From positions 1 through 24,611 of IMG/VR virus record IMGVR_UViG_3300025317_000011: a DNA stretch of 24,611 nucleotides. One strand, 5' to 3'. Shown one piece after another: positions 277-23,966 of the stretch. The translations under genes were made by a program, and so were the position numbers. How positions within the stretch are numbered: the stretch's first letter is position 1; each line of letters starts with the position of its first letter. The notes beneath the pieces were generated by a model that was not told the DNA's origin, made no database searches, and worked only from the letters and a program-made list of their open reading frames with translations. The DNA is from a virus.

Positions 277-401
277 ATAACAATCAAACCAAGCGTTGCT
301 CTGCCTGTAAAAATAGTCTTGATATAACTGCTTTTGAAGAGAGTGAAGCGATTTGTAGGGGATGCAAGGCATTTGAGAAAGCGAAAAAGGTTAACAAATA
401 A
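273..401 (+). CDS. Zinc-ribbon microprotein, 42 aa
   Basis: The 42-residue frame starts at 273 in an ATGA overlap with the previous gene and ends with TAA at 399-401. It contains two CxxC pairs, CSAC near residue 9 and CRGC near residue 28, separated by about 16 residues. This is the classic spacing of a rubredoxin-like or zinc-ribbon knuckle. Such single-ribbon proteins usually bind DNA, RNA or a protein partner, but no specific function can be read from the sequence. It lies in a run of five short plus-strand genes, three of which carry Cys pairs. Confidence 0.65.
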   Translation: MNNNQTKRCSACKNSLDITAFEESEAICRGCKAFEKAKKVNK

Positions 402-409
402 AATAATTT

Positions 410-574
410 ATGAAAAAACTTGTACCAATTTTAGCGATGTTGCCTGCGATAGGGATTGTAGTAATCGCATTGACGACATTTAGTTCAACTAGCCTTCTTG
501 TATTATTGATAATCATAATTGCGACACTTTCTCTGGCTTCATTTTTTTGGGGATTAGACCAATTAATAAAATGA
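410..574 (+). CDS. Two-helix membrane microprotein, 54 aa
   Basis: ATG at 410 gives a 54-residue hydrophobic protein ending at TGA 572-574, which overlaps the next ATG at 571. Two apolar segments are visible: residues about 4-22 (VPILAMLPAIGIVVIALT) and about 28-48 (SLLVLLIIIIATLSLASFFW), with a lysine-containing start MKKL. It is predicted to be an inner-membrane hairpin. Position in the operon rather than homology supports it. It could be a superinfection-exclusion or holin-like peptide, but nothing in the sequence decides this. Confidence 0.6.
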   Translation: MKKLVPILAMLPAIGIVVIALTTFSSTSLLVLLIIIIATLSLASFFWGLDQLIK

Positions 575-705
575 AAAAAATGAACAAAGAAAAACGGAGA
601 AAATGCCGAAGATGTGATAAGGGTTTTGCTAAAGAATTTTCTTCTTATTGTAAAAACTGTATTGTGTATATTATAAACAACTGGATGATAAGAAGTTTGA
701 AATAA
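571..705 (+). CDS. Zinc-ribbon microprotein, 44 aa
   Basis: The frame begins with ATG at 571, overlapping the stop of the membrane microprotein, and ends with TAA at 703-705. It encodes 44 residues: a basic N-terminus, then CRRC near residue 12 and CKNC near residue 27, then a hydrophobic tail (IVYIINNWMI). The paired CxxC motifs indicate a single zinc site. The stop codon falls inside the 5' arm of the structured RNA predicted at 704-842, so this is the last gene of the plus-strand operon. Function unknown. Confidence 0.62.
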   Translation: MKKMNKEKRRKCRRCDKGFAKEFSSYCKNCIVYIINNWMIRSLK

Positions 706-842
706 TCATCTTTCGGCGGGGTTAATTTGTAAAGATAAGCCCTGCGATAAACCCCCAGTCTTAACTTCTTTCCGGAATCAGAGTTAAAATTGGACTTTCA
801 CGGTGGGACCGGACTCCGGTCTGGCCTCGCCGAAAGATGGTT
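704..842 (+). ncRNA. Putative structured RNA with 15-bp closing stem
   Basis: Bases 704-718 and 828-842 form a 15-bp closing stem (AATCATCTTTCGGCG with CGCCGAAAGATGGTT; one G-T pair). Inside are three further helices: 719-723 with 750-754 (GGGTT/AACCC); 757-766 with 782-796 (AGTC and TTAACT arms, with a 5-base bulge on the 3' side); and a perfect hairpin 807-821 (GACCGG-ACT-CCGGTC). This resembles a multibranched RNA. It is not a tRNA by anticodon or T-loop, and I do not recognise a riboswitch class. The strand is assigned from the adjoining plus-strand operon; the helices could also form on the minus strand. It may be a free ncRNA or a 3'-UTR element. Confidence 0.55.
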
Positions 843-1028
843 ATTGCGTGATTGTCAAATAAGTGTTAAACTTAAATCAGTAGAAATTCTTGAATTTTTG
901 CCAGTTCTATAAAAGATTTTTTAATAAATTCAGGACCTGGGCATCTTTTCAAAAACTTCAGCTTAATATGCAGCGCGAAACCTGCTTCTGACGATTCGCT
1001 CGTTAGATAAGAGCGATACACAAAACCT
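843..1028. other. Non-coding spacer in convergent junction
   Basis: No credible gene was found on either strand. The stretch is AT-rich and contains one clear small hairpin, TCGCTC (996-1001) pairing with GAGCGA (1011-1016) around a 9-base loop. A weaker AT palindrome lies at 884-897. It sits between the putative RNA at 704-842 and the terminator at 1029-1061, so it may belong to the same transcript. Confidence 0.5.
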
Positions 1029-1061
1029 CCCTTAATTGTCCTCACGGGTTAAGGGATTTTT
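1029..1061 (+). terminator. Intrinsic terminator, probably bidirectional
   Basis: CCCTTAA (1029-1035) pairs with TTAAGGG (1049-1055), followed by ATTTTT (1056-1061), which is a good rho-independent terminator for the plus-strand operon. On the minus strand the same stem is followed after two bases by TTTT, so it may also stop transcription arriving from the HNH gene at 1174. Confidence 0.75.
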
Positions 1062-1070
1062 GTTTGCATC

Positions 1071-1106
1071 CAATAAAGGAAGCGCCCCACAACGCTCCCT
1101 TTATTG
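1071..1106. repeat. 14-bp near-perfect inverted repeat in convergent junction
   Basis: CAATAAAGGAAGCG (1071-1084) and CGCTCCCTTTATTG (1093-1106) pair with one mismatch around an 8-base loop (CCCCACAA). There is no T-tract directly after it on either strand, so it is not a canonical terminator. Together with the 1029-1061 stem it forms a double hairpin separating the plus-strand operon from the minus-strand lysis genes. It could protect 3' ends or be a protein-binding palindrome. Confidence 0.65.
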
Positions 1107-1173
1107 AAGACAAGCATTATATCAAGTTTCATCTAAAGACCTCGCTTTTAAGGCGATTTGTCGCAAGAAATGG

Positions 1174-1533
1174 CTATTTGGGACGATTCAGTATCTTATT
1201 TCTCCACAACTCGCTATCAACCCGAACATTTTTATTGAACGATTTGAAATTCATCAGATGTCCGACAAAAAGATGATGTTCGGGACAAAGTGTAATCAAA
1301 TTATCAGGACTTAATTCAAGACTTTTATCCACCGAAAACATAACACAATGATGCACATTTAATGGTCTTATCAAACCGGCCTTTCGTCCACAGACTGCAC
1401 AGGTTGGAAACTTTCTTAAATATTCTTTCCGCACAGCAGCCCACTTCGGACTGCGCAAACCTCCTAATAATGGCTTGCCTTGAAACCAATCCTGAATCCA
1501 ATAATAGAATTGTATAATTTTCTCTATAATCAT
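1174..1533 (-). CDS. HNH endonuclease, 119 aa
   Basis: This is a 119-residue HNH nuclease of the small phage type. C45 and C48 (CAVC) start the zinc-supported fold. The catalytic region contains VHH (H61, H62), N78 in SPDNLITLC, and C83 with H86/H87 (CPEHH). That order matches the beta-beta-alpha metal core that nicks or cuts DNA. Upstream is only a basic, hydrophobic N-terminal helix. It is the last minus-strand gene before the convergent junction. Stand-alone HNH proteins in phages are either homing nucleases or packaging partners; since another HNH lies beside the terminase genes, this one looks more like a mobile or accessory copy, which is inference. ATG is at 1533. Confidence 0.85.
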   Translation of the reverse strand: MIIEKIIQFYYWIQDWFQGKPLLGGLRSPKWAAVRKEYLRKFPTCAVCGRKAGLIRPLNVHHCVMFSVDKSLELSPDNLITLCPEHHLFVGHLMNFKSFNKNVRVDSELWRNKILNRPK

Positions 1534-1538
1534 AATGG

Positions 1539-1596
1539 CTGGCCCGCTGGATTGGATACCAGAGTTCCCGATGAAGTCGGGAAGTTTCCGGGCCAG
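1539..1596 (-). ncRNA. Three-way-junction RNA element between membrane gene and HNH gene
   Basis: CTGGCCCG (1539-1546) and CGGGCCAG (1589-1596) form a perfect 8-bp stem. Inside it are two hairpins: CTGG/CCAG (1547-1550 with 1559-1562), and TTCCCGA/TCGGGAA (1565-1571 with 1577-1583) around a 5-base loop. The element fills the 63-base gap between the small membrane protein gene and the HNH start, ending five bases upstream of the HNH ATG, so it could control HNH translation or act as a terminator or processing site. The strand is taken from the flanking genes. The inner hairpin resembles that at 14701-14716. Confidence 0.5.
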
Positions 1597-1830
1597 TTAC
1601 TTACCCGCCAATTTTCTAAATGCGCCAATCACTCTTTCTTCCAATGCGAATGTTCGGTTTAGGACCTTAGTTAATTCTCCAACGCCAAGTCCGATTATTG
1701 CCACCACAACTGGCGGTAATTCAAGCAATCCTATATTGGCACTGACAAATGCCAGAAGCGCCGCGAGCGACATTCCCAGTAGACGCCATAGAAAAGATTT
1801 TAATCTGTTTAGAAATTCTTTTGTATTCAT
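1597..1830 (-). CDS. Small two-helix membrane protein, holin candidate, 77 aa
   Basis: The chosen start (MNTKEFL, ATG at 1830) overlaps the amidase stop as ATGA, matching the coupling used throughout this cluster; a longer in-frame start exists at 1854. The 77-residue product has an amphipathic basic N-terminus, hydrophobic segments at about residues 13-36 and 40-58, and a charged C-terminal tail (ending FRKLAGK). Size, two membrane spans and immediate coupling to an endolysin gene fit a class II holin, which would form inner-membrane lesions letting the amidase reach the cell wall. The assignment rests on topology and context, not sequence identity. The other 77-residue membrane protein at 3169-3402 is a rival candidate. 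Confidence 0.65.
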   Translation of the reverse strand: MNTKEFLNRLKSFLWRLLGMSLAALLAFVSANIGLLELPPVVVAIIGLGVGELTKVLNRTFALEERVIGAFRKLAGK

Positions 1831-2366
1831 TTTCTTGTATTTATATCTATACACGGCGAGGAAGCCGACCCCATCTTCCCCGCTTTTAATCTCATAAGCA
1901 AATCCTTAAGGGAATTAAGCAGGGTATTGTAATATGACATATCTGGCTGGAAAAGTTGTTTAATCTCCGATTCTGGCCACATCAATCCGGGACAAGTTTT
2001 AAATTTCGTAAAATTTCTATGACCAAAAACATTATCAGGCAAAATTGAATGCTCCGTCATTTTATGAAGAATCAAATTTTTAACGGCTGATAACTGGAGT
2101 TGGGTCGGTCTTTCGTAATCGTGATTGCCCGCAACTCCAATTCCAATGGAATCTGAATTATATCCTTGAACGTGGGCTTGTTGTTCAGTATCGGTGCGGG
2201 TCTGTATGACCTTGCCATTTCGTTCTAAGAAATAAGTATATCCTATCCAATATCCAAGTGAAGATTTAGGAAAATCCAACTGTCGGTGCCAATTATCTAC
2301 TCTCTCCAGTTGATTGAATGGATATAAATCAGCGGTTGTATGAACAATAATTCTTACAGGTTTCAT
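1827..2366 (-). CDS. N-acetylmuramoyl-L-alanine amidase (endolysin, Amidase_2 family)
   Basis: This amidase_2/PGRP-fold endolysin would cleave the bond between N-acetylmuramic acid and L-alanine in peptidoglycan at lysis. With the start at 2366 (MKPVRIIVH) it is 179 residues. Likely zinc ligands are H9 in IIVHTTAD, H116 in FGHRNF and C125 in KTCPG. Family landmarks IGYTYFLERNG (about 41-51) and SIGIGVAGNHD (about 73-83) are also present. An alternative start at 2399 adds 11 residues, but the 2366 ATG forms an ATGA overlap with the preceding peptidase gene, as in neighbouring genes. Residues beyond about 145 are a helical tail with no recognised wall-binding repeat. The next gene is a holin candidate, giving a compact lysis cassette. 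Confidence 0.88.
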   Translation of the reverse strand: MKPVRIIVHTTADLYPFNQLERVDNWHRQLDFPKSSLGYWIGYTYFLERNGKVIQTRTDTEQQAHVQGYNSDSIGIGVAGNHDYERPTQLQLSAVKNLILHKMTEHSILPDNVFGHRNFTKFKTCPGLMWPESEIKQLFQPDMSYYNTLLNSLKDLLMRLKAGKMGSASSPCIDINTRK

Positions 2367-3172
2367 AATCCCAAAAATCTTAATAATCTCCTCCACCAAG
2401 ATTCTTTCATAATTTTCTCAAGTGAAAATCTCTTGGCTTGTCCGAAAGTAAAATCCCAAGCCAATTTCTTGATACCGGCATCATATGAATCAAAGATTAA
2501 CCAGTATTCGCTCTCCTCATATCCGAATAAACAGACCCAATGATTGGGAGAGCCTTGCGAAATATATAATCCATTCTGTTCGGCCCAGGCAAAAACTGCA
2601 ATTCCCACGGGAGAATACTGTAGGGCAGTTTTTAATCTATTCTCTCTATCTTTTTGATTCTCTCCGCCTTGTAAAACCCATTCGTGGCCGAAGGAGAATC
2701 TAGTAAGCCAATTTTTACCTTCCGCTTCACAATCTTGTTGATTTGCCCCAAGGAACGAGAAATACATCTCTGGCGTAATTAAATTATCCGTGAATGGTAA
2801 CATATCTTCGGAAATCAATCCCGAATGACGAACTGCTTGTGCAATCGCATGAGGTGAATTGCCCGGAGGAAATGTGCCAGCCGCAATTCCTAGAAACCTA
2901 TCAGAATTATTTGTGTCTTCTCCGAATTTCTTTTTATGCAAAATCTCTAATGCGTTCGTAGTTCCAAATGCTGTACAGTTATATGTTTCCAAATAATTCT
3001 TCCGCTGAATTTCCAAGACTGGAAGTTCCTTGTCCCATTGTCCATTGGGCTGGATTATCTGGCCCCCAAGACTAACTCCGCCGCCAAGAACATAATGATC
3101 TTCGGCAATCTTATCGGGAATAAACCCAAGATTGGGAATCTTGCGAATTTTTATTTTATTCTTTTTCTTCAT
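2363..3172 (-). CDS. Papain-like cysteine peptidase, 269 aa
   Basis: The protein looks like a C1/papain-fold cysteine peptidase. C66 sits in YNCTAFGTTNALE, a helix-starting nucleophile context. H211 (SPNHWVCLFGY) and D228 (LIFDSYD) follow with the spacing expected for the His and Asn/Asp of the catalytic triad. No signal peptide or membrane segment is seen. The N-terminal 50 residues (NLGFIPD, WDKELP) could be a propeptide-like lead. It is ATGA-coupled to the gene upstream and to the amidase downstream, so it belongs to the lysis/membrane cassette. Possible jobs are cleaving cell-wall peptide cross-links (as CHAP or C39 relatives do) or processing the exported proteins encoded upstream. The substrate cannot be told from sequence. 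Confidence 0.7.
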   Translation of the reverse strand: MKKKNKIKIRKIPNLGFIPDKIAEDHYVLGGGVSLGGQIIQPNGQWDKELPVLEIQRKNYLETYNCTAFGTTNALEILHKKKFGEDTNNSDRFLGIAAGTFPPGNSPHAIAQAVRHSGLISEDMLPFTDNLITPEMYFSFLGANQQDCEAEGKNWLTRFSFGHEWVLQGGENQKDRENRLKTALQYSPVGIAVFAWAEQNGLYISQGSPNHWVCLFGYEESEYWLIFDSYDAGIKKLAWDFTFGQAKRFSLEKIMKESWWRRLLRFLGL

Positions 3173-3402
3173 TTCTTGTTAAACAAAAACGTGCTGATAA
3201 CCGCCGTGTTGTTTTCAAGAGTTTTATCCAACTTGTCAATCATGTCGGTTTGTTTTTCTATTGAACTGTTAATGTGGGTCAAATCATTAGTCAAAATTTT
3301 AAATAATACATAAGACAAAAACGCTGCTAAAAAAACGCCCCCAACGCTTGTTATCATTACGGCAAAATCTTTCCCGGTTATATTTTTAAGCCAATTAATC
3401 AT
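3169..3402 (-). CDS. Membrane-anchored coiled-coil protein, 77 aa
   Basis: The start chosen at 3402 (MINWLKN) makes an ATGA overlap with the upstream gene; the longer frame beginning at 3432 would add ten very charged residues. The 77-residue product has one hydrophobic segment at about residues 13-36 (AVMITSVGGVFLAAFLSYVL core), followed by a heptad-like helix at about 37-68 (HINSSIEKQTDMIDKLDKTL). This topology fits a hemolysin-XhlA-like or holin-associated phage protein, or a spanin-like subunit. There is no lipobox. It sits two genes before the amidase, so a role in lysis or membrane anchoring is likely but not proven. Confidence 0.6.
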   Translation of the reverse strand: MINWLKNITGKDFAVMITSVGGVFLAAFLSYVLFKILTNDLTHINSSIEKQTDMIDKLDKTLENNTAVISTFLFNKK

Positions 3403-3851
3403 CTTTTTATCTCGCTCCGCTCTGCGTTCCACTTAATCCCCACCCACCCCAGAATTGCCAATAACACAGTCCCGATGACCACCAATAATCCCGCCGGTAT
3501 AAATCCACTTTCGCTATTCACCTCGGGAACGGCAGAACCGATTGGAGTGCTAGTAGACCAATCCAATTTTGCGTCATAGGGTAAATCCGCAGACTTGGTG
3601 ATTAATTTTATTGATTCGGGATAGCCGAGTTTCAGACGGGCGGCGATGTTATATTCCAGCATTGCTTTTGCGGTGCATTGAGCTGGGTCGGTGCCGTAGA
3701 TTTTATTAATAGCAGAATTATTTAAAGACCAGCATTCTTGTTTATTATCCCATCGTTCTTGGCATTGTATTTTGGTATCACGGCATTCCACTGGCAATGC
3801 AAAAGCTAAGAATGGAAATAATAAAAAAGTTGTAATAATAATTTTCTTCAT
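3399..3851 (-). CDS. Secreted or membrane protein with signal peptide and C-terminal anchor, 150 aa
   Basis: The start at 3851 (MKKIIITTFLLFPFLAFA) gives an ideal Sec signal peptide with cleavage likely after AFA near residue 18; the longer frame from 3872 buries this signal and was rejected. The TAATG overlap with the upstream gene supports this start. The exported part is Cys-rich at its N-terminus (CRDTKIQCQERW, then QECW and QCTAK), suggesting disulphides. The C-terminus has a transmembrane span (GLLVVIGTVLLAILGWVGIK) followed by a basic tail. It thus resembles a surface-anchored protein of the host rather than a virion part. No family is recognised. Neighbours are another exported protein and the lysis genes. 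Confidence 0.62.
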   Translation of the reverse strand: MKKIIITTFLLFPFLAFALPVECRDTKIQCQERWDNKQECWSLNNSAINKIYGTDPAQCTAKAMLEYNIAARLKLGYPESIKLITKSADLPYDAKLDWSTSTPIGSAVPEVNSESGFIPAGLLVVIGTVLLAILGWVGIKWNAERSEIKR

Positions 3852-4654
3852 TAAAGTTGTATCCATAACCAAGGTCTTGAATTATTTGGTGCAGTCGCAG
3901 GTCCTGCTTGAGCAGGAACACCATCAATAGAAAGAGTATCAAGCCAAAACGAATCAGAGGAACCACCACTAAATTGAATAGTTCCAGCATTGCCAGTCGT
4001 ATCTAATGTTCTGCAAGTAGACCAAGCGCCGCCATTGAAACTCGCAGTTACTTGCGTTGAAGAACATCCTTTTCCACTACCAAAATCGCCCGCATAATCA
4101 ACCAATACTTGCTGAAATGTATTTTCAGTCCAAGAACCAAGATTATCTGTTCCGCCTGAAGCACGAAGTAACACACTACCGCCCGCACCTGGTCTATTTA
4201 CTATAATTGAAAAAAGCTCTCCAGCATCTGAACAATCAAATTGTCCAAAGACACCATCGGGACAAAAGAAAACTGCATTTCCTTCGCTGTTAGTTTCAGT
4301 AGCTTTACTAAAATAAAAACTAATACGACCGCCTGCTGTAATAGCTCCAAATTGACGATAAACAAAAGTTGCATTGGTGTTTTCTGCTGTTACACAATTT
4401 CCTGATGAAGGAGCTGAACAGGAAGCATCAGCAGTAATTGTCGGGTCTGTTTGCGAAGCGGGCGTAGATGTAAAACTCCAAGCCGAAGTAAAATTACTTC
4501 CGCCATTTTTTCCAATTAAACCTTCGGTCGCAGTATAGTCAAAACCCTCTGTTGCCGTAGCCGCAAAAGCAATTTCTGGAAGACTGAAACTTGTCCAAAA
4601 AATAAACAATCCTATAAAGATTATTAGAAATATCTTTTTAGCTTTCTTCAACAT
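3851..4654 (-). CDS. Exported beta-rich protein, 267 aa
   Basis: The start at 4654 (MLKKAKKIFLIIF) gives a textbook signal peptide with a basic n-region, a hydrophobic core (IIFIGLFIFW) and a probable cut after IAFA near residue 34. The longer open frame from 4702 adds a charged lead that would hide it. The mature part is Gly/Ser/Thr-rich with repeated Cys (CSAPSSGNC, FFCPDGVFGQFDCSD, GCSSTQ, WSTCR) and motifs such as SFYFSKATETNSEG and SDSFWLDTLSIDG. The latter resemble concanavalin-like or jelly-roll carbohydrate-binding modules seen in bacterial surface proteins. The gene lies at the 3' end of the fibre-like block, so it may be a host-surface adhesin or receptor-masking protein. The fold assignment is inference. 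Confidence 0.6.
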   Translation of the reverse strand: MLKKAKKIFLIIFIGLFIFWTSFSLPEIAFAATATEGFDYTATEGLIGKNGGSNFTSAWSFTSTPASQTDPTITADASCSAPSSGNCVTAENTNATFVYRQFGAITAGGRISFYFSKATETNSEGNAVFFCPDGVFGQFDCSDAGELFSIIVNRPGAGGSVLLRASGGTDNLGSWTENTFQQVLVDYAGDFGSGKGCSSTQVTASFNGGAWSTCRTLDTTGNAGTIQFSGGSSDSFWLDTLSIDGVPAQAGPATAPNNSRPWLWIQL

Positions 4655-7471: not shown

Positions 7472-7602
7472 TGGAAAATAAAGATTCAAAAGATTTGCGT
7501 ATAATTACCGTAATTTCTTTAGTAATTTTATTCGGTATTCCTTTGTTATTTCTTGTGGATTTCATAATTTCTTTATTCATGATAAGAATAATTATTTATT
7601 AA
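7471..7602 (+). CDS. Membrane microprotein, 43 aa
   Basis: ATG at 7471 overlaps the stop of the preceding microprotein. The 43-residue product has a charged N-terminus (MENKDSKDLR) and one long hydrophobic segment from about residue 11 to the end (IITVISLVILFGIPLLFLVD core), which may make one or two spans. The TAA at 7600-7602 lies inside the 3' end of the converging minus-strand gene, overlapping it by 11 bases. Both microproteins form a two-gene unit reading against the virion genes. Function unknown. Confidence 0.62.
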   Translation: MENKDSKDLRIITVISLVILFGIPLLFLVDFIISLFMIRIIIY

Positions 7603-10600
7603 AAACTTTTTCATAATAAATTCTCAAATCTTCTGGTAAATTTTTTAATCCTTTAGCCCATTCTCCAAGATAAGCGAATCTTTCATGAGTAATCGCATCT
7701 TCGTGCATATTTTTATATAAAGGATTAGTTTCCAAATGTTTATCAATTTGACGCAAAATTAAATTATCTTTTTTGTTTTGTTCCCAAATTTTATCAAATT
7801 CATTCCAAGGCGTAGACATTCCAATAGTTTCCAACCAGCCGTGTAATAACTCGTGTGCTAAAATACTAGAACGAGGATCGGCTAATCCAATTCTTTTAAC
7901 TGCGCCTAGCAATTTTCTTTCTAAAACAAAATTGTTATATTCCGTTACTCCTCCATATGGTTTTATTCCCCTGCGTAAACCTAAAATTACATCCTCAACC
8001 GGGAATTCTTCATCAATATCTATTTTATTAGCTAATTTTTTAAATTGTTCCGTAAAGGGATAATTTTCCATAGCCTCTCGCATCAAAATCCTTTCTGCCG
8101 GAGTTTTCACAATTTTTTCCGTAATTGGGAATTTCCCAAAAAATTCGCGCAAGCCATTGATTATCTTATTAGCCATCCCCTTAATAAAACCTGGCGGTTT
8201 TTCCAATTTTTCATTTCTAGACAAAATAGATTGTATATGCTCACTCCATTGATTTGGATTTTGCATTGATTCTTTATTAGTTTCAAAATTTTGAATATGA
8301 AAATTTAAACTATCTTGTTTATTTTCTTGAAATAAACGGCCTCTTTGTATCTTTTTTTCTTTAGGAATAAATGGCCCTGTAAATTCAGAGATTTCTCCAG
8401 CTTCTTTTAATAAAGTTCGTAGTGCTTTTTCTTTTTCTTGTTCGGCAAAAGTTGCTTGAGTTTGTAAATCAATCGGCTGTATTTTCAAACCAACTAATTT
8501 AAGAAGTTCTTGGGCAGTTGTTCGTCTTTGTGATCTTCCCGCTTCTGTTCCGGTATCTCCTCCGAATAGTTGTTGCCATTGAGCTGGTCGTCTTTCATCT
8601 CCTTTGCGATAACCCCCCGGAATTTGATCTGCTAATAATGGTGGAGCATAAGTTTTAACAAGATGCCGCAAAATATCTCCCATTTGGTCTTCTATATCAT
8701 CACTTTCTCTAAATATCCTATTGCCAAAGAAATCTTGATTTTTGGCTAATTCTTTAATTACATTCAAAAATGGAGATTTTTTTAATAATGCCTCCGGTAC
8801 ACTTTCTTTTAATCCGGTCTCTCTTTTAACATCACGTTTCAATAATTGACCACTTAATAAATCACCGAAAGGCAATATATAGGTCAAATCAAAATACGCG
8901 CTTCTTCCCTCTTTATCTTTCATTGGTAATTTCACAAAGAATCCATCTCTAACCCAAGACGGCTCAGTTTCTCTCTCTGCGGTAAGCTCTTGTAAGTCAG
9001 CTTGATTCTCTATACCCTCTTTAATTTTTCCAATTTTAGATATTTTGGTCGGTTTAGTTACCAATGTCTTGGCTACTTGAGGCGTTACTTTGTATGTAAA
9101 AGTAATGAATGGCAATCCAAATATACTCTCGCGAACCCTGCGGATGAACGGTGTAACTTGTGAATAATTAAAGGTTGCCCTTTCCGCTACTTTGTATGCT
9201 TCCTCTGGAGATAGTCCTTTACTCTTTTGAAAAATGTATTGTGCCATTTTCGCAAACTCTTCTTCTTTCTGATAAACATCAGCAATTTTGTTTAGTGCGG
9301 TTTTGAATTTCCCAGCTTGTTGTCCCAGGTTTTGCGATAAAATATCTCTTAATTCCCCGGAAGCAAAAGTATCTAAGCCCAAACCAGCTTTTTTGGCTTC
9401 TTGATATAAATCCCCCTTAGTTATTAATTGTTTAGCCGCCTTAGCATAAACATCTAAGCGGGCTGGAGATAACCCCTCAAAATCATTTAAGATAAAATTG
9501 CTCATCACATTGCGAGCATGAGTTGCGGGATTCAAAATAACCTTTCCAAATTTGAAACCCTGAACAATACTACTTAATACTTTTTCCGTTGGTGTTTTTG
9601 TTCGGATAATTTCTTGAATATCATCAAATATCGGTGTGGGAACTGCCTTACCCGACAAAGAACCCAACGCTTTAGTTTCTGGGAGTTTTTTCAACCCCTC
9701 TTCAATAACATCGCTTCCCCATTTTGTCGCCACTTCTCCGAAGAATTTGGCGTTTTCTACCGAACGAGTTAATTGGACTAATGCTTTGGCCGTAGGATAA
9801 CCAGCTTCTAAAATCTCTCCCATTGCTTCCCGGACTTCTTCGGGTATATCGGTTCGTTTTTTAAATCTTTGTAAATCAATTCTTTTTGGCTTCGCTTCAA
9901 AAACTCCTTTTACTTTTCCAACAATACCTTCTGGAATTTCTTTCGTTTTATAAAGACGGGCAATATATTTTCCGACATTCTCCGCATAGGTTTCTGCATT
10001 TAATAAACCAACTTTCACCGCTTCCTGTCCCAGTCTATCCAATTCATCAAAAGCAGGCTTTGCCTTGGCTAATAAATCAGCTGGTAAATTATCCAATGTT
10101 CCCGCTTTTCTTGCTTCTGCAATCGCTTTTTGCGAAATATTATCAAGTTTCGTAATTGGTCTTGCCAAATCAAGAACGTTCTGAACTCCTATCCCTGCGT
10201 TCTTAATACTTCTTTCCGCAAGTTCTTTATATGCCGCATCTTGACCGAAACGATATACAAACATTTTTCCGAGTTGTTGTCCCGCTTTTTCCGCAATGGG
10301 TAATTTAGAAATTACTTGTCCAGCGGCTTTTGCCCCCTTACCCGCAAATTGAATAGCTCTTTTTAAAATTCCAAACCCACCCAAATAAGTGAGCGGATCA
10401 ACCGCTATATCCAAAACAATGCCAACAATAGTCCCTGGAATACCTAAATCTCCCAATCCTTGTTCACCTTTTTCTGTAAAACTTGCCCTTGTTTTAACCC
10501 CCTCCGCAAATCCCTTTCCCTGTATCAGGCCAGTAACTCCGTGCTGAAGTAAATTTAGTGTGTCAAAGGTATCTTGTATAAAACCTCCACTAAAAATCTG

Positions 10601-10780
10601 CTCGGGTTTTTCCCCTTTGGTTTCAAGAATCTTCTGTGCTTGTTCTCCTAATCCTGCTCTTTCAGCCGTTGCCTGAAGTCCCGACGGAGTAGTTAAATCT
10701 TGGGCTTGAGCTGGAGAACCAAAAAGACGGCCACCTCCTACCACCTCTCTTTCCGCAGTTGTTCCAAATAATCTTGCCAT
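7592..10780 (-). CDS. Large ejection/polyvalent-type virion protein with C-terminal zincin motif, 1062 aa
   Basis: This is the longest gene of the window and starts with ATG in a TAATG overlap with the upstream stop at 10780. Gly-rich hydrophobic segments near residues 100-160 (LGIPGTIVGIVLDIAVDPLT) could insert in membranes. A central region has NPATHARNVMSNFIL and FNYSQVTPFIRRVRE, motifs I associate with phage large polyvalent or internal virion proteins. Near the C-terminus HELLHG (H976, E977, H980) is followed by ITHERFAYL (E1033), matching a gluzincin-like metallopeptidase signature. Such proteins are packaged and injected with the DNA, forming a conduit or opening the cell wall. The domain naming is from recognition of motifs and not a search. 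Confidence 0.65.
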   Translation of the reverse strand: MARLFGTTAEREVVGGGRLFGSPAQAQDLTTPSGLQATAERAGLGEQAQKILETKGEKPEQIFSGGFIQDTFDTLNLLQHGVTGLIQGKGFAEGVKTRASFTEKGEQGLGDLGIPGTIVGIVLDIAVDPLTYLGGFGILKRAIQFAGKGAKAAGQVISKLPIAEKAGQQLGKMFVYRFGQDAAYKELAERSIKNAGIGVQNVLDLARPITKLDNISQKAIAEARKAGTLDNLPADLLAKAKPAFDELDRLGQEAVKVGLLNAETYAENVGKYIARLYKTKEIPEGIVGKVKGVFEAKPKRIDLQRFKKRTDIPEEVREAMGEILEAGYPTAKALVQLTRSVENAKFFGEVATKWGSDVIEEGLKKLPETKALGSLSGKAVPTPIFDDIQEIIRTKTPTEKVLSSIVQGFKFGKVILNPATHARNVMSNFILNDFEGLSPARLDVYAKAAKQLITKGDLYQEAKKAGLGLDTFASGELRDILSQNLGQQAGKFKTALNKIADVYQKEEEFAKMAQYIFQKSKGLSPEEAYKVAERATFNYSQVTPFIRRVRESIFGLPFITFTYKVTPQVAKTLVTKPTKISKIGKIKEGIENQADLQELTAERETEPSWVRDGFFVKLPMKDKEGRSAYFDLTYILPFGDLLSGQLLKRDVKRETGLKESVPEALLKKSPFLNVIKELAKNQDFFGNRIFRESDDIEDQMGDILRHLVKTYAPPLLADQIPGGYRKGDERRPAQWQQLFGGDTGTEAGRSQRRTTAQELLKLVGLKIQPIDLQTQATFAEQEKEKALRTLLKEAGEISEFTGPFIPKEKKIQRGRLFQENKQDSLNFHIQNFETNKESMQNPNQWSEHIQSILSRNEKLEKPPGFIKGMANKIINGLREFFGKFPITEKIVKTPAERILMREAMENYPFTEQFKKLANKIDIDEEFPVEDVILGLRRGIKPYGGVTEYNNFVLERKLLGAVKRIGLADPRSSILAHELLHGWLETIGMSTPWNEFDKIWEQNKKDNLILRQIDKHLETNPLYKNMHEDAITHERFAYLGEWAKGLKNLPEDLRIYYEKVFNK

Positions 10781-20443: not shown

Positions 20444-21262
20444 TCATTCGCAAAGTGGCGTACGGAGCGAAGCGAGTTGCGCAACGCGTTCTTTGTTCCA
20501 ATCACAAGGATAATTAAATTTTTCAATGAGACCAGCGATTTTTTTATTCAAATATCTTTTTCTTAATTCGTTGAGAGTGGCCCTGATATGTTCTTTGTTT
20601 CTTTGATACGGGAATTGGCTTTCTTTTTCCCGAAACATATGAGCGTAATAAACTTTTTTCGCAGTCGCGCACCGCCCGCCATTCAACCATGCCTTAATCC
20701 CCAACTCCGCAGCTTGTCCTCCCCAACTTCCCAAGGATTCATCGCATATATTCCATTTCCAGTAATTCTCGCGCGTAATCATCCACGCCGAACCTTGCAA
20801 GCACATTGTTTCATTCAACAATTCGCTATTCTCGCCCTTAGGATGGTATTGAAATACCAAATTCGTATCAAAGGCGTATGAAGATGCCGGTGTAATTAAA
20901 GGAATTTCCCATTTCTCGGCATCCAATGGCATAAGACGCGGCGCCAGAATGGTTCTATCATCAATATCCTCCAGCATTATCCGGTCAAATCCTTGTGAGA
21001 ACGAAACATGCGCGTCAATCTTCATTACATAATCCGCTTCGGAAAGCCGAGCGAGTTCGTTTGTTATGGCGCGTTGACCAATACTTTTATCTTTCCAAAT
21101 ATATTCCACATTTGGCAAGTTTCGCATTCTATAATCCTTCGTCCATCCATCTAAACCGACAAGAATTTCCGTGTCGGATTCCTTATGCTTCAAAATATCA
21201 TCTATTGTTTTATCAAGATATTTTTCATCTCTGGCCGGAACAAGAATTGAAATCTTGACCAT
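20444..21262 (-). CDS. Family 2/27-like glycosyltransferase, 272 aa
   Basis: GT-A fold glycosyltransferase. The N-terminus (MVKISILVPARDEKYLDKTI) is a typical family-2 start. DAH (residues 83-85, in VMKIDAHVSFS) matches the DxH metal/nucleotide-sugar motif. Farther on, WGGQAAELGIKAWLNGG resembles the acceptor-side motif of ppGalNAc-transferase-like enzymes. It would transfer a sugar from a nucleotide donor to a protein or glycan. The start overlaps the terminase stop (TAATG), so it is translated with packaging genes. A possible role is glycosylating virion proteins such as the Thr/Ser-rich ones encoded downstream; that is inference. Confidence 0.82.
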   Translation of the reverse strand: MVKISILVPARDEKYLDKTIDDILKHKESDTEILVGLDGWTKDYRMRNLPNVEYIWKDKSIGQRAITNELARLSEADYVMKIDAHVSFSQGFDRIMLEDIDDRTILAPRLMPLDAEKWEIPLITPASSYAFDTNLVFQYHPKGENSELLNETMCLQGSAWMITRENYWKWNICDESLGSWGGQAAELGIKAWLNGGRCATAKKVYYAHMFREKESQFPYQRNKEHIRATLNELRKRYLNKKIAGLIEKFNYPCDWNKERVAQLASLRTPLCE

Positions 21263-23265
21263 TATTTTGTTGAGTTCATACCCATTTTATTCTGATTTTT
21301 AGCAAAATATTCATCCAATCTTTGCTTCATTTCCCCGCCATTTTCCGCCATCAGCATTGAAATGCAGTACCTGGTAGCATCGCAATTACTTACCATTATT
21401 CCATTTGCGAGATACATACCACTTTTCGTTTTCAGATTGTAAACGGGTACGCGACCAACGTAACGCTTTCTGACGACAGTTGAGATGGCAGAATCTACCT
21501 CTCTCTGGGTATTTTGTGAAGTATTTTTTTCTGCATAAGTCGCATTTTCGCTCAATAATCGGTCTGTTGTACATGAAATGGGCATTTTGCAACCCCAATT
21601 CTCTCCTACGTTTTTTACCGGTTGGAGTTTTAGACCATTGAGAGGCCAATTCAATAATTGTTTTAATGTTCTCTCTAGCCCACTCGCGCTTTTCTTTCGT
21701 CCAATGATGATGAGCGTGTTCGCCGCGCTCCATAATCCCAAGATTACTAATTGAATTATTGAGGGGATTGCCGTCAATATGATGAACAATGAATCCTTTA
21801 GGCACCTCTCCATTTTTCTTTCGCCAAATATATCTATGTAATCTCTCTCTCTTGCCTCTAAAAGTCGCTTTATTGCCGAGATAATAACTCCTTTCAACCC
21901 ATTTAGGACTGTTTGGATATCTAGTCCAGCCGATACCATCATAAATATTTTTTTCTTTTTCCATACAACATCATCATAACGCAATGTGTCTATATCAATC
22001 AATCCTCTGTTAGTTAGTACGGGATGATTGGGTGTGGCAATTAACTTTTCTTCTGCCACTTCGTACTCGTAAACATTTTCAGTTCCGGTTTTCGTGCCAA
22101 TTTCTTCAATTTTTTTACCATTTACGATAGTTCCGGCAACAAAACACATATGATCTGCGCGCTTTATCGGTTTCTCGTTGGCATTCCGATTATCTTTTTC
22201 TTCATCGTACGAATAACTCTCCAGTTCGGCAATAAGATTTATACATCGCTTATGGATTTTTAATTTGCCGGTCTTAAATAATTCCTGAATTTTGCTTATG
22301 CCGGCTTCTACGCTCCCTTTGCCTTTCGCTACCTCCCTGACATTTACTCGTTTGCGATTCAATTCTTCAATAGCCGCCGGATTTTCCGGATCGGGATATA
22401 CCGCTTCAAAACTGCAGCCAGCTACATACTCGGCTATCTGAATATCGGTCTTTTCCGTCTTGTACCATTCATTTGAAACAAAAAATCTATCACCATCAGA
22501 ATAAATCTCCGCCACTGCCGCTGGATTTCTATATCCGAAGTCTACACCGGCGTATCGTTTGAATGATTTGGGCACCAGATTATCATCTTCATATAAATGC
22601 AAAGCGCGACTAAATCCTTTATAAACCAGTCCGGTTGTCTTTGTGAACTCTGCCAGATATTCCTGACTAAATCTATCCTCTGGCAATGTCTCCTTGGCAG
22701 CATTCAGCTCATCTACCGGCAAATAAGGATTGTCATAACTCGTAAAATGAAATGTTTTAAACTCTCGGTCTTTCAATTCAAGATTGCATAAATCAAAAAA
22801 ATGATTAAAACCCTTGGGCGTACTGGAAAATATGGCAATTCCTTGTCTATCAGTAAGAGTAGGCCTTAAAATCTCATGCCAATTAATCCAAAAATTTCGC
22901 ATTGTCGCCACTTCATCCAAGACGAGCAAATCAAATGCTTGACCGCGTAAATTCTCTACGCTTTCCCATCCACGGAGAACTATCAGACTCTCACCGCCCT
23001 TTAATGTTCTGGTCCGTATTTCCAGTCTTGCTTCGTTGGTATCAATGATCGCTCCCAATAATTCCTTCTTTAGGAATTCCCACATAATATCGCGGGCTTG
23101 CTGATAGTTATTGGCAATATAGGCGATCCTACTGGGTTTGGCAATCGCCACGCCTTTGATTTCCTCGGCATCTAATGAAGTTTTACCCCAGCGCCGACCG
23201 CAGCGAAATACTCTGAATCTATGCTTGTCCTTTGCTATCTGGCTTTGAGTTGGATGTAATATCAT
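21262..23265 (-). CDS. terL: Large terminase subunit interrupted by an intein, 667 aa precursor
   Basis: The packaging motor ATPase-nuclease. Walker A CGRRWGKTS at residues 22-30, Walker B LLVLDE at about 113-118, coupling motif FSSTPKG at about 146-152, and RNase H-like nuclease Asp residues D242 (GVDFGY) and D292 (YPDPENP). The third nuclease motif is split: DHM at 371-373 is followed by the intein (374-627), then CDATRYCISML. Removal of the intein gives a 413-residue terminase with DHMCDATRY restored, so activity should need protein splicing. The start overlaps the small-terminase-like gene by 47 bases. The frame is open through the intein although most of it is also read in the -1 frame as an HNH gene. 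Confidence 0.92.
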   Translation of the reverse strand: MILHPTQSQIAKDKHRFRVFRCGRRWGKTSLDAEEIKGVAIAKPSRIAYIANNYQQARDIMWEFLKKELLGAIIDTNEARLEIRTRTLKGGESLIVLRGWESVENLRGQAFDLLVLDEVATMRNFWINWHEILRPTLTDRQGIAIFSSTPKGFNHFFDLCNLELKDREFKTFHFTSYDNPYLPVDELNAAKETLPEDRFSQEYLAEFTKTTGLVYKGFSRALHLYEDDNLVPKSFKRYAGVDFGYRNPAAVAEIYSDGDRFFVSNEWYKTEKTDIQIAEYVAGCSFEAVYPDPENPAAIEELNRKRVNVREVAKGKGSVEAGISKIQELFKTGKLKIHKRCINLIAELESYSYDEEKDNRNANEKPIKRADHMCFVAGTIVNGKKIEEIGTKTGTENVYEYEVAEEKLIATPNHPVLTNRGLIDIDTLRYDDVVWKKKKIFMMVSAGLDIQTVLNGLKGVIISAIKRLLEARERDYIDIFGERKMERCLKDSLFIILTAIPSIIQLVILGLWSAANTLIIIGRKKSASGLERTLKQLLNWPLNGLKLQPVKNVGENWGCKMPISCTTDRLLSENATYAEKNTSQNTQREVDSAISTVVRKRYVGRVPVYNLKTKSGMYLANGIMVSNCDATRYCISMLMAENGGEMKQRLDEYFAKNQNKMGMNSTK
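21385..22146 (-). other. Intein in the large terminase nuclease motif, 254 aa
   Basis: Terminase residues 374-627. Block A is CFVAGTIVNGKKIEEIG with Cys1 as nucleophile. Block B contains KLIATPNHPVL with the conserved His. Block F is VYNLKTKSGMYLANG. Block G ends IMVSN followed by Cys+1 of the extein; the penultimate residue is Ser rather than the usual His. Residues between about 434 and 590 have no endonuclease motif in this frame because the homing nuclease is encoded in the -1 frame over the same bases. The splicing parts alone add up to roughly 100-130 residues, a mini-intein size. Insertion splits the DHxxDAxRY nuclease motif, a highly conserved site typical for intein homing. Confidence 0.9.
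21386..21964 (-). CDS. HNH homing endonuclease nested in the intein, -1 frame, 192 aa
   Basis: The frame is -1 relative to terL. It opens with ATG at 21964 (inside the terL GTA TGG codons), nine bases after an in-frame TGA, and ends with TAA at 21386-21388, one base before the intein boundary. The protein has RLHRYIWRKKNGEVPKGF, then VHHIDGNPLNN (H61, H62, D64, N66, N70), SNLGIMERGEHAHHH, and a four-Cys zinc finger C141, C144, C159, C163 (CDLC...CHLNC). These are hallmarks of phage HNH homing nucleases. No strong ribosome binding site precedes the ATG. The likely role is cutting intein-less terL genes to spread the intein. Expression by slippage at the A7 run is an alternative to independent initiation. 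Confidence 0.88.
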   Translation of the reverse strand: MEKEKNIYDGIGWTRYPNSPKWVERSYYLGNKATFRGKRERLHRYIWRKKNGEVPKGFIVHHIDGNPLNNSISNLGIMERGEHAHHHWTKEKREWARENIKTIIELASQWSKTPTGKKRRRELGLQNAHFMYNRPIIERKCDLCRKKYFTKYPERGRFCHLNCRQKALRWSRTRLQSENEKWYVSRKWNNGK

Positions 23266-23527
23266 GTTTTTCCGCTACCTCTTGCGAGATTTGAACCACT
23301 AAAGGTTTGTCGGGATTGCCCTCTAATTGCTGAGGAGGATTTCCTTCGGCCATACGGTAACGTAATTCGGGTGCTATTTTTTTGAGAAATTCCTCTTTTT
23401 CTTTATCCGACATTTCTATAAATTTTTTTCTATCATAATCTTTCAATCCTCCTTTAGGACGACCGCTCGGATTTCCAGATTGTCCTGGCTTGAATCTAGT
23501 ATCTGGAGATGGATTAGAATTTGACAT
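23219..23527 (-). CDS. Small terminase-like protein with DUF5681 motif, 102 aa
   Basis: The N-terminus has FKPGQSGNPSGRPKGG (about 12-27), the hallmark of DUF5681 proteins usually encoded just before large terminases, followed by a helical stretch (DYDRKKFIEMSDKEKEEFLK) and a polar tail. It overlaps the HNH gene upstream (14 bases) and terL downstream (47 bases). The position suggests it is the DNA-recognition (small) terminase subunit or a partner of it, although it lacks an obvious helix-turn-helix and is shorter than most. ATG at 23527. Confidence 0.68.
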   Translation of the reverse strand: MSNSNPSPDTRFKPGQSGNPSGRPKGGLKDYDRKKFIEMSDKEKEEFLKKIAPELRYRMAEGNPPQQLEGNPDKPLVVQISQEVAEKHDITSNSKPDSKGQA

Positions 23528-23966
23528 TTTCGTGATTTTTTCCTGTTAGCAGGATTTTTTCTTGGTGAGGACAAATTCTTCCGTCCCATTTGCCAAATTG
23601 ACAGTTATGGCAAAGTGACTGATATCTATTTACTGGAAATTTTTCTACAAAGATTATTTTATAATATAAATCTTTACTGATTAATTTTCTTTTCCTACCG
23701 TATTTCATCTTATCTAAATAACCATCATTATAAATATGATCTATTGTCATGAATTTGGGTTCATTTTCGCCACAACAGACACAAATCCATCCATAATGAT
23801 CAAAAACCTGTTTACGATAACCAGCTCTTAAACTATTTATTCTTTTATTAGTACAATCTTTACAAGATTTTCTTAATCGCCTATTTTGATCTGTTCTAAC
23901 AGCAAATCGCTCTAAAGTTTTTTCTTCATTGCATTGACTACATTTTTGTTTTTCAATTTTAGGCAT
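23514..23966 (-). CDS. HNH endonuclease beside terminase, 150 aa
   Basis: Zinc-supported HNH protein. Four Cys (C9, C12, C35, C38) make an N-terminal zinc ribbon. The nuclease core has CVCC (C62-C65), IDHI (D76, H77), and SLCHNCQ (C119, H120, N121, C122), matching the beta-beta-alpha metal fold. It is encoded immediately before the small-terminase-like gene, where HNH proteins of HK97-type phages assist terminase cutting during packaging, so a packaging role is as plausible as homing. It overlaps the next gene by 14 bases. Confidence 0.82.
   Translation of the reverse strand: MPKIEKQKCSQCNEEKTLERFAVRTDQNRRLRKSCKDCTNKRINSLRAGYRKQVFDHYGWICVCCGENEPKFMTIDHIYNDGYLDKMKYGRKRKLISKDLYYKIIFVEKFPVNRYQSLCHNCQFGKWDGRICPHQEKILLTGKNHENVKF

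Follow-up and report, generated by a model that had tools for sequence, protein, structure and literature searches.

A gene for the large subunit of the terminase, terL, lies on the minus strand of the viral DNA examined here (IMG/VR record IMGVR_UViG_3300025317_000011, positions 1 to 24,611; the whole stretch of 24,611 nucleotides is called the window), and it contains an intein whose DNA also encodes an HNH endonuclease in a second reading frame. Coordinates of the window given below are those of features on its minus strand. The gene (21262-23265) is one uninterrupted open reading frame (ORF) of 667 codons, with no break across the intein. Its 667-residue product, a terminase precursor, matches Terminase_6N (E=5e-15), Terminase_3C (E=6e-7) and phrog_2, terminase large subunit (E=9e-52), and in profile searches the terminase domains sit N-terminal of the intein. 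The intein comprises 254 residues (TerL residues 374-627; 21385-22146), with splice blocks read from the sequence and boundaries set by codon arithmetic, and is inserted in the last nuclease motif of TerL, between DHM and CDATRY. When the intein is removed, TerL aligns without interruption over this site in many phages, and intein-less TerL homologues are common.

The initial annotation had recognised complete splice blocks A, B, F and G in the terL frame, and all four can be read directly at the coordinates it gave. Block A (CFVAGTIVNGKKI; 22108-22146) includes CFVAGT, with the nucleophile Cys1 at 22144-22146, and this cysteine is kept in 97 of 97 relatives, whose N-terminal boundary was found with a Cys-anchored pattern. 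Block B is TPNH, of the TxxH type (22024-22035), and the corresponding residues T38 and H41 are invariant among 50 aligned inteins. Block F (RVPVYNLKTKSGMYLA, from VYNL; 21406-21453) doubles as the C-terminus of the endonuclease in the −1 frame, and its region is 85% identical to that of a relative, locus L003, in each of the two frames. Block G (the ANGIMVSN end, NGIMVSN) is followed by the +1 cysteine at 21382-21384 (together 21382-21405), so that the intein ends in VSN before Cys, as class 1 cis-splicing inteins do with their C-terminal Asn.

A Hint fold is present in the structure predicted for this intein. AlphaFold2 assigned residues 1-60 a predicted local distance difference test (pLDDT) score of 92-97 and the C-terminal end scores of up to 98, with most of the dual-coded middle below 60, and the top Foldseek matches of the model in the PDB are all inteins (best E=0.006, probability 1.00). 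The profile of the intein family also matches the gp41-1 intein (E=6e-21), and the Intein_splicing profile is matched by 49 of the 50 members of the family alignment.

The endonuclease gene (21386-21964) lies in the −1 frame relative to terL and is dual-coded over its whole length, inside the intein. Its 192-residue product matches Pfam HNH_3 (E=8e-16) and PHROG phrog_15471, HNH endonuclease (E=4e-21), as expected from the initial annotation, which had described an HNH nuclease with a zinc finger that runs over blocks F and G. The HNH_3 domain covers residues 41-84 (21713-21844) and the zinc ribbon is C141xxC144 ... C159xxxC163 (21476-21544), so that both parts typical of the HNH_3 class of homing endonucleases are present; residues H61, H62, N70, N74, H83 and H87 and all four zinc-ribbon cysteines are invariant in 40 of 40 nested HNH proteins. 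The only candidate start codon is an ATG (21962-21964) directly after block B, about two codons downstream of the point at which the HNH frame opens. The gene ends in TAA at 21386-21388, one base short of the last base of the intein at 21385, again as first noted. Such an extension over both block F and block G, as far as the last codon, is peculiar to the lineage of the window; the HNH reading of relatives mostly terminates about 55 nucleotides ahead of the junction.

The locus was not filed as a canonical intein, because the nuclease that lies between its blocks B and F is read at −1 rather than in frame. It is also not a split intein or fractured gene of two ORFs, terL being open throughout. 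A group I intron was ruled out by the open host frame and by the lack of any Rfam match, to this or another family, at E<=1. Two more HNH-type nuclease genes are found in the window, at 23514-23966 and 1174-1533, and the former additionally matches endonuclease VII-like and Lar-like profiles.

Relatives with the same layout

The initial annotation knew of no other continuous intein with a nested out-of-frame nuclease, but this turned out to be the commonest architecture found at the TerL nuclease site. The nucleases of L003 and L004 are about 57% identical to that of the window, and in both relatives the two frames are open. The same layout occurs in the TerL records of Acinetobacter phage Highwayman (L006), Tetrasphaera phage TJE1 (L007), Rhodobacteraceae phage LS06 (L008) and a human-gut phage (L012), and at this locus the annotation of TJE1, Highwayman and LS06 mentions the terminase only. 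A scan that used an alignment of nested nucleases as the query returned 442 related loci; among the best 80, which were examined, 64 lie within a longer ORF of another frame, always with the HNH gene at −1. The enclosing ORFs are TerLs that retain intein blocks on both sides of the nuclease, so the splice blocks, whose loss in relatives would have spoken against the initial annotation, are kept. When 26 loci from cellular assemblies were examined, 9 likewise had nested out-of-frame HNH genes, on contigs assigned to a Thermoplasmatales archaeon, Nitrospiraceae, Bacteroides, Parabacteroides, Desulfovibrio, Patescibacteria and others.

A census of viral contigs that did not depend on the nuclease, based on a single C-terminal junction pattern (HNCxDAxRY), found at least 120 loci. 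Among the 120 matches listed, the HNH gene is at −1 in 100, at +1 in two and in frame in one, and 17 have none, although some of these 17 are fragments too short to judge. The in-frame case, L092, has its HNH in frame with the C-terminal part of a broken TerL and is a frameshifted copy of the nuclease that lies at −1 in L058, L072 and L110.

Some pairs of relatives appear to bear traces of recombination. Between L003 and L004 (L003 nucleotides 400-3900), identity is about 50% in the first 450 nucleotides of terL, after which it is mostly 97-100% across the intein and as far as about 3.7 kb. This places a recombination break some 0.6 kb upstream of the intein, a pattern expected from co-conversion or phage mosaicism. 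L077 and L084 are 98-100% identical in the N-terminal part of the intein and the C-terminal half of the nuclease and 74% identical in its N-terminal half, the HNH part, a pattern that looks like local replacement within the dual-coded stretch.

Selection on the terL frame

The chance that a random frame would stay open over this distance had been put at the order of 1e-4 in the initial annotation, which ascribed the open frame to selection. When the 192 HNH codons were shuffled synonymously, the terL frame was open in 0.11% of 20000 trials, with a mean of 3.5 stops, and when HNH codons were drawn from the codon usage of the window, it was open in 0 of 5000, with a mean of 6.9 terL-frame stops. 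The estimate was of the right order, but HNH genes by their nature produce few stops in their −1 partner frame: 3.2 are expected per gene versus 19.5 in the +1 partner frame, about six times fewer. This explains the placement of the nuclease, since an HNH gene at −1 creates about three host-frame stops to purge and one at +1 about 20. The two census loci with the HNH gene at +1, L097 (junction at nucleotide 6250) and L112, still have terL open despite the roughly 20 stops expected on average.

That selection keeps the terL frame open across relatives is strongly supported, in agreement with the initial annotation. Among the census matches listed, with near-copies merged by shared 5-mers, an open terL frame occurs in 54 of the 64 distinct −1 loci, versus 5.7 expected. 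This comparison is the fair test, because the 112 distinct contiguous loci, which contain no terL-frame stop against 256 expected from synonymous shuffling, had been chosen as open. No depletion was found in the controls: in HNH relatives located outside contiguous inteins, the same frame has 7.3 stops, exactly as expected (7.3), and the unused third frame of contiguous loci has 19.1 versus 19.3 expected. The expectations are conservative, given that the shuffled genes were already depleted of stop-making codons.

The amino acid sequence of the terL-frame product is another matter. In 32 independent contiguous pairs, third-position divergence is 0.49-0.51 in the overlap versus 0.55 in the single-coded N-terminal part of the intein, and because these third positions are only slightly slower, the terL frame appears to be kept open while its amino acids are as free as in a linker. 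A second protein strongly conserved in the terL frame throughout the family was ruled out by the same values. The comparison of codon-position rates that the initial annotation called for thus gave constraint in both frames only in part and only for the pair formed by the window and L003, most pairs being merely kept open. This pair seems to be a partial exception: over HNH codons 1-96, its third-position difference is 0.25, versus 0.57 in the single-coded N-terminal part (one pair), with 61% identity of the terL-frame protein; over codons 99-165 the pattern is like that of nuclease-only coding, and in blocks F and G all codon positions are conserved.

Proposed mechanism and its alternatives

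We consider it highly probable that the window encodes a cis-splicing TerL mini-intein hosting an independent homing endonuclease gene nested at −1, and not an in-frame nuclease domain. Ribosomes on terL would read through to give a precursor of TerL-N, intein and TerL-C, in which the two Hint halves (intein residues ~1-60 and 222-254) would fold together around the out-of-frame stretch, the latter forming a long linker, disordered for the most part, and self-excision of the intein would restore the TerL nuclease motif. Separate initiations on the same message, at the ATG after block B, would yield a free HNH/zinc-ribbon nuclease that could cut intein-less terL, after which the intein DNA would be copied into the break; the nested DNA-cutting enzyme is thus probably what spreads the element. 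Since one stretch serves both readings, nuclease codons that would make terL stops would be purged.

Several points weigh against this mechanism. The penultimate residue of the window intein is Ser, not the usual His (which is usual, but neither universal nor defining), and block F lacks its usual His as well. Among 97 relatives, the intein ends in HN in 83 and in SN in 11, and with both histidines missing, the window intein may splice slowly. Taken alone, it scores below the cut-offs of Pfam Intein_splicing and NCBIfam intein_Nterm. In addition, splicing, cleavage and homing are predictions for every member of the family, and no Shine-Dalgarno motif was found upstream of the HNH gene in the window, although most genes of the window have none either. 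Many of these genes have A-rich leaders before their ATG, which hints at a host not reliant on Shine-Dalgarno sequences, such as a Bacteroidota.

With respect to how the nuclease is translated, it could instead be made as a fusion to the N-terminal part of TerL and of the intein (IntN), through programmed −1 frameshifting or polymerase slippage on an A-tract after block B. The start region of the HNH gene in the window does contain AAAAAGAAAAAAA, and the two codons or so by which its frame is open before the ATG provide the overlap that a frameshift requires. L003, however, lacks this A-tract, and a frameshift would need no ATG, while 91 of 104 nested loci have an ATG of their own versus 29 expected from base composition. 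In these loci, the HNH frame opens just past block B, mostly 1-6 codons ahead of the start codon. Shine-Dalgarno-like motifs upstream of nested HNH genes number 36 versus 17 expected, about twofold, and a clear GGAGG is present 7 nucleotides upstream of the start in L008, L147 and L151. We therefore favour independent initiation at the ATG and regard a frameshifted fusion as unlikely.

It is also conceivable that the nested nuclease no longer serves homing and has been retained for another job, for instance as an HNH activity associated with TerL in packaging. HNH proteins that aid the terminase are known in some phages, as cited in PMC11855218, and the window has its two further HNH genes. 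Nevertheless, natural losses of the nuclease can be seen. L074 lacks 489 nucleotides of the nuclease present in L062 and retains the nuclease tail, their flanks being 92-94% identical; L026 and L038 differ by 582 nucleotides, and L053, which also retains a tail, differs from L112 by 387. Across such pairs of mini-inteins with and without HNH, the flanks are 79-94% identical. Mini-inteins that lack HNH but have nearly identical flanks, and the many TerLs without an intein, show that the nuclease can be done without, as the classic homing cycle would have it, and we find retention for a job other than homing quite improbable. Furthermore, 489, 582 and 387 are all multiples of three, so that the terL frame is preserved, which is natural evidence that this frame is translated.

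The last observation also bears on the proposal that only the HNH frame is real and that terL is unused over it, because the intein does not work or TerL is produced as separate pieces, its openness being due to chance. About a dozen relatives are in fact split, with a TerL-IntN ORF that ends in a stop, an HNH ORF and a separate ORF for the C-terminal intein part (IntC). However, the excess of open loci over the chance expectation, the in-frame presence and absence of the nuclease and the conservation of blocks F and G at every codon position between the window and L003 make this proposal very improbable. As for two sequencing or assembly indels having disrupted what would otherwise be an ordinary intein with its HNH domain in frame, L092 is the one census locus with HNH in frame, and its TerL is broken, but such errors are refuted, and there is next to no chance of them, since terL is base-identical in two contigs from other IMG datasets (exact identity over more than 6 kb), the nuclease is at −1 in 100 listed census loci and 64 loci of the HNH scan, and both frames are kept at 57% identity. 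An evolutionary version of the idea in the initial annotation, in which two compensating indels detached an in-frame HNH domain, is not favoured either, given the absence of the A-tract in L003, the same frame in very divergent relatives and the conserved start codon of the nuclease.

The split relatives deserve further comment. Their IntC start lies within the nuclease gene, the HNH gene is at −1 relative to IntC in 12 of 12, and the frame of the N-terminal part has drifted in several. In an HNH tree, well-supported branches require at least two changes for the split forms (a quick tree search, with weak deep branches), which suggests that split inteins may derive from contiguous, dual-coded ones. 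A single terL-frame stop over the HNH gene, together with a start codon ahead of IntC, would turn a cis-splicing intein into a trans-splicing one. Only tentatively, then, could the dual-coded intein be seen as the standing form at the TerL nuclease site across phages of very different hosts and as a natural source of split inteins. Close relatives that differ in the presence of the nuclease, together with split forms that carry the same nuclease, make both the homing cycle and this origin of split inteins testable. Nested nucleases of this type escape annotation, but their frame is predictable (−1), and long overlaps with a recognisable function in both products are useful material for the study of dual coding.

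Among other observations, positions 7592-10780 of the window encode a 1062-residue protein whose match to a virion structural family is confined to residues 289-574. Three archaeal contigs (L241, L244 and L247, from Nanohalarchaeota, Woesearchaeota and an uncultured archaeon) encode proteins of 450-530 residues with a signal-like N-terminus, a Cys-rich region, a membrane helix, a coiled coil and a C-terminal HNH-like domain.

Comparison with known systems

In canonical HNH inteins, such as the cyanobacterial GyrB intein, the HNH nuclease is an in-frame domain of the intein, and a ribonucleotide reductase (RNR) intein that we found (L242) has this form. Like them, the window has Hint halves and, between blocks B and F, an HNH homing nuclease, but here the nuclease is a separate gene at −1. 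The textbook layout of inteins is thereby altered, as the homing enzyme can be encoded by a gene of its own within the same DNA, out of frame with the intein. In 2009, Dassa and colleagues reportedly described fractured genes in which the intein is split and the nuclease is free-standing. These genes share with the window a nuclease gene between the intein halves, and their exact layout is found in relatives of the window; the window itself and most relatives differ in having a contiguous intein that the nuclease overlaps. Of solved structures, only the phage HNH homing endonuclease I-HmuI (PDB 1u3e) is matched by the profile of nested HNH proteins (E=0.006), with weak similarity limited to the HNH region, and I-HmuI is encoded in an intron rather than an intein.

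Phage TerL inteins have been studied by Kelley et al. (2016, PMC5050341). According to the passages found of that paper, those of mycobacteriophages all lie in the ATPase domain, in contrast to the nuclease motif in the window, and five were tested for splicing; these passages do not describe out-of-frame nucleases. Our literature search for out-of-frame nucleases in inteins returned only the work on ShiLan (Arsenault, Gosselin and Gogarten 2025, PMC11855218) and a genome announcement mentioning an out-of-frame HNH in a methylase. It found no description of dual-coded TerL inteins as a class, though there may be overlap with a preprint that we know by citation only (Gosselin, Arsenault and Gogarten 2025, 'Actinobacteriophage Inteins ... 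Non-Canonical Architecture', bioRxiv 2025.01.02.630785), which PMC11855218 cites for frequent overlapping reading frames in actinobacteriophages and which may hold the same observation for those phages.

ShiLan, in which an out-of-frame HNH lies in a phage DNA methylase, resembles the window in its nested HNH/zinc-finger ORF, its open host frame, an HNH stop located where the insert itself ends and no obvious ribosome site. Nevertheless, the ShiLan insert carries no intein splicing domains and presumably remains in the protein, whereas the host frame of the window has blocks A, B, F and G and a predicted Hint fold.
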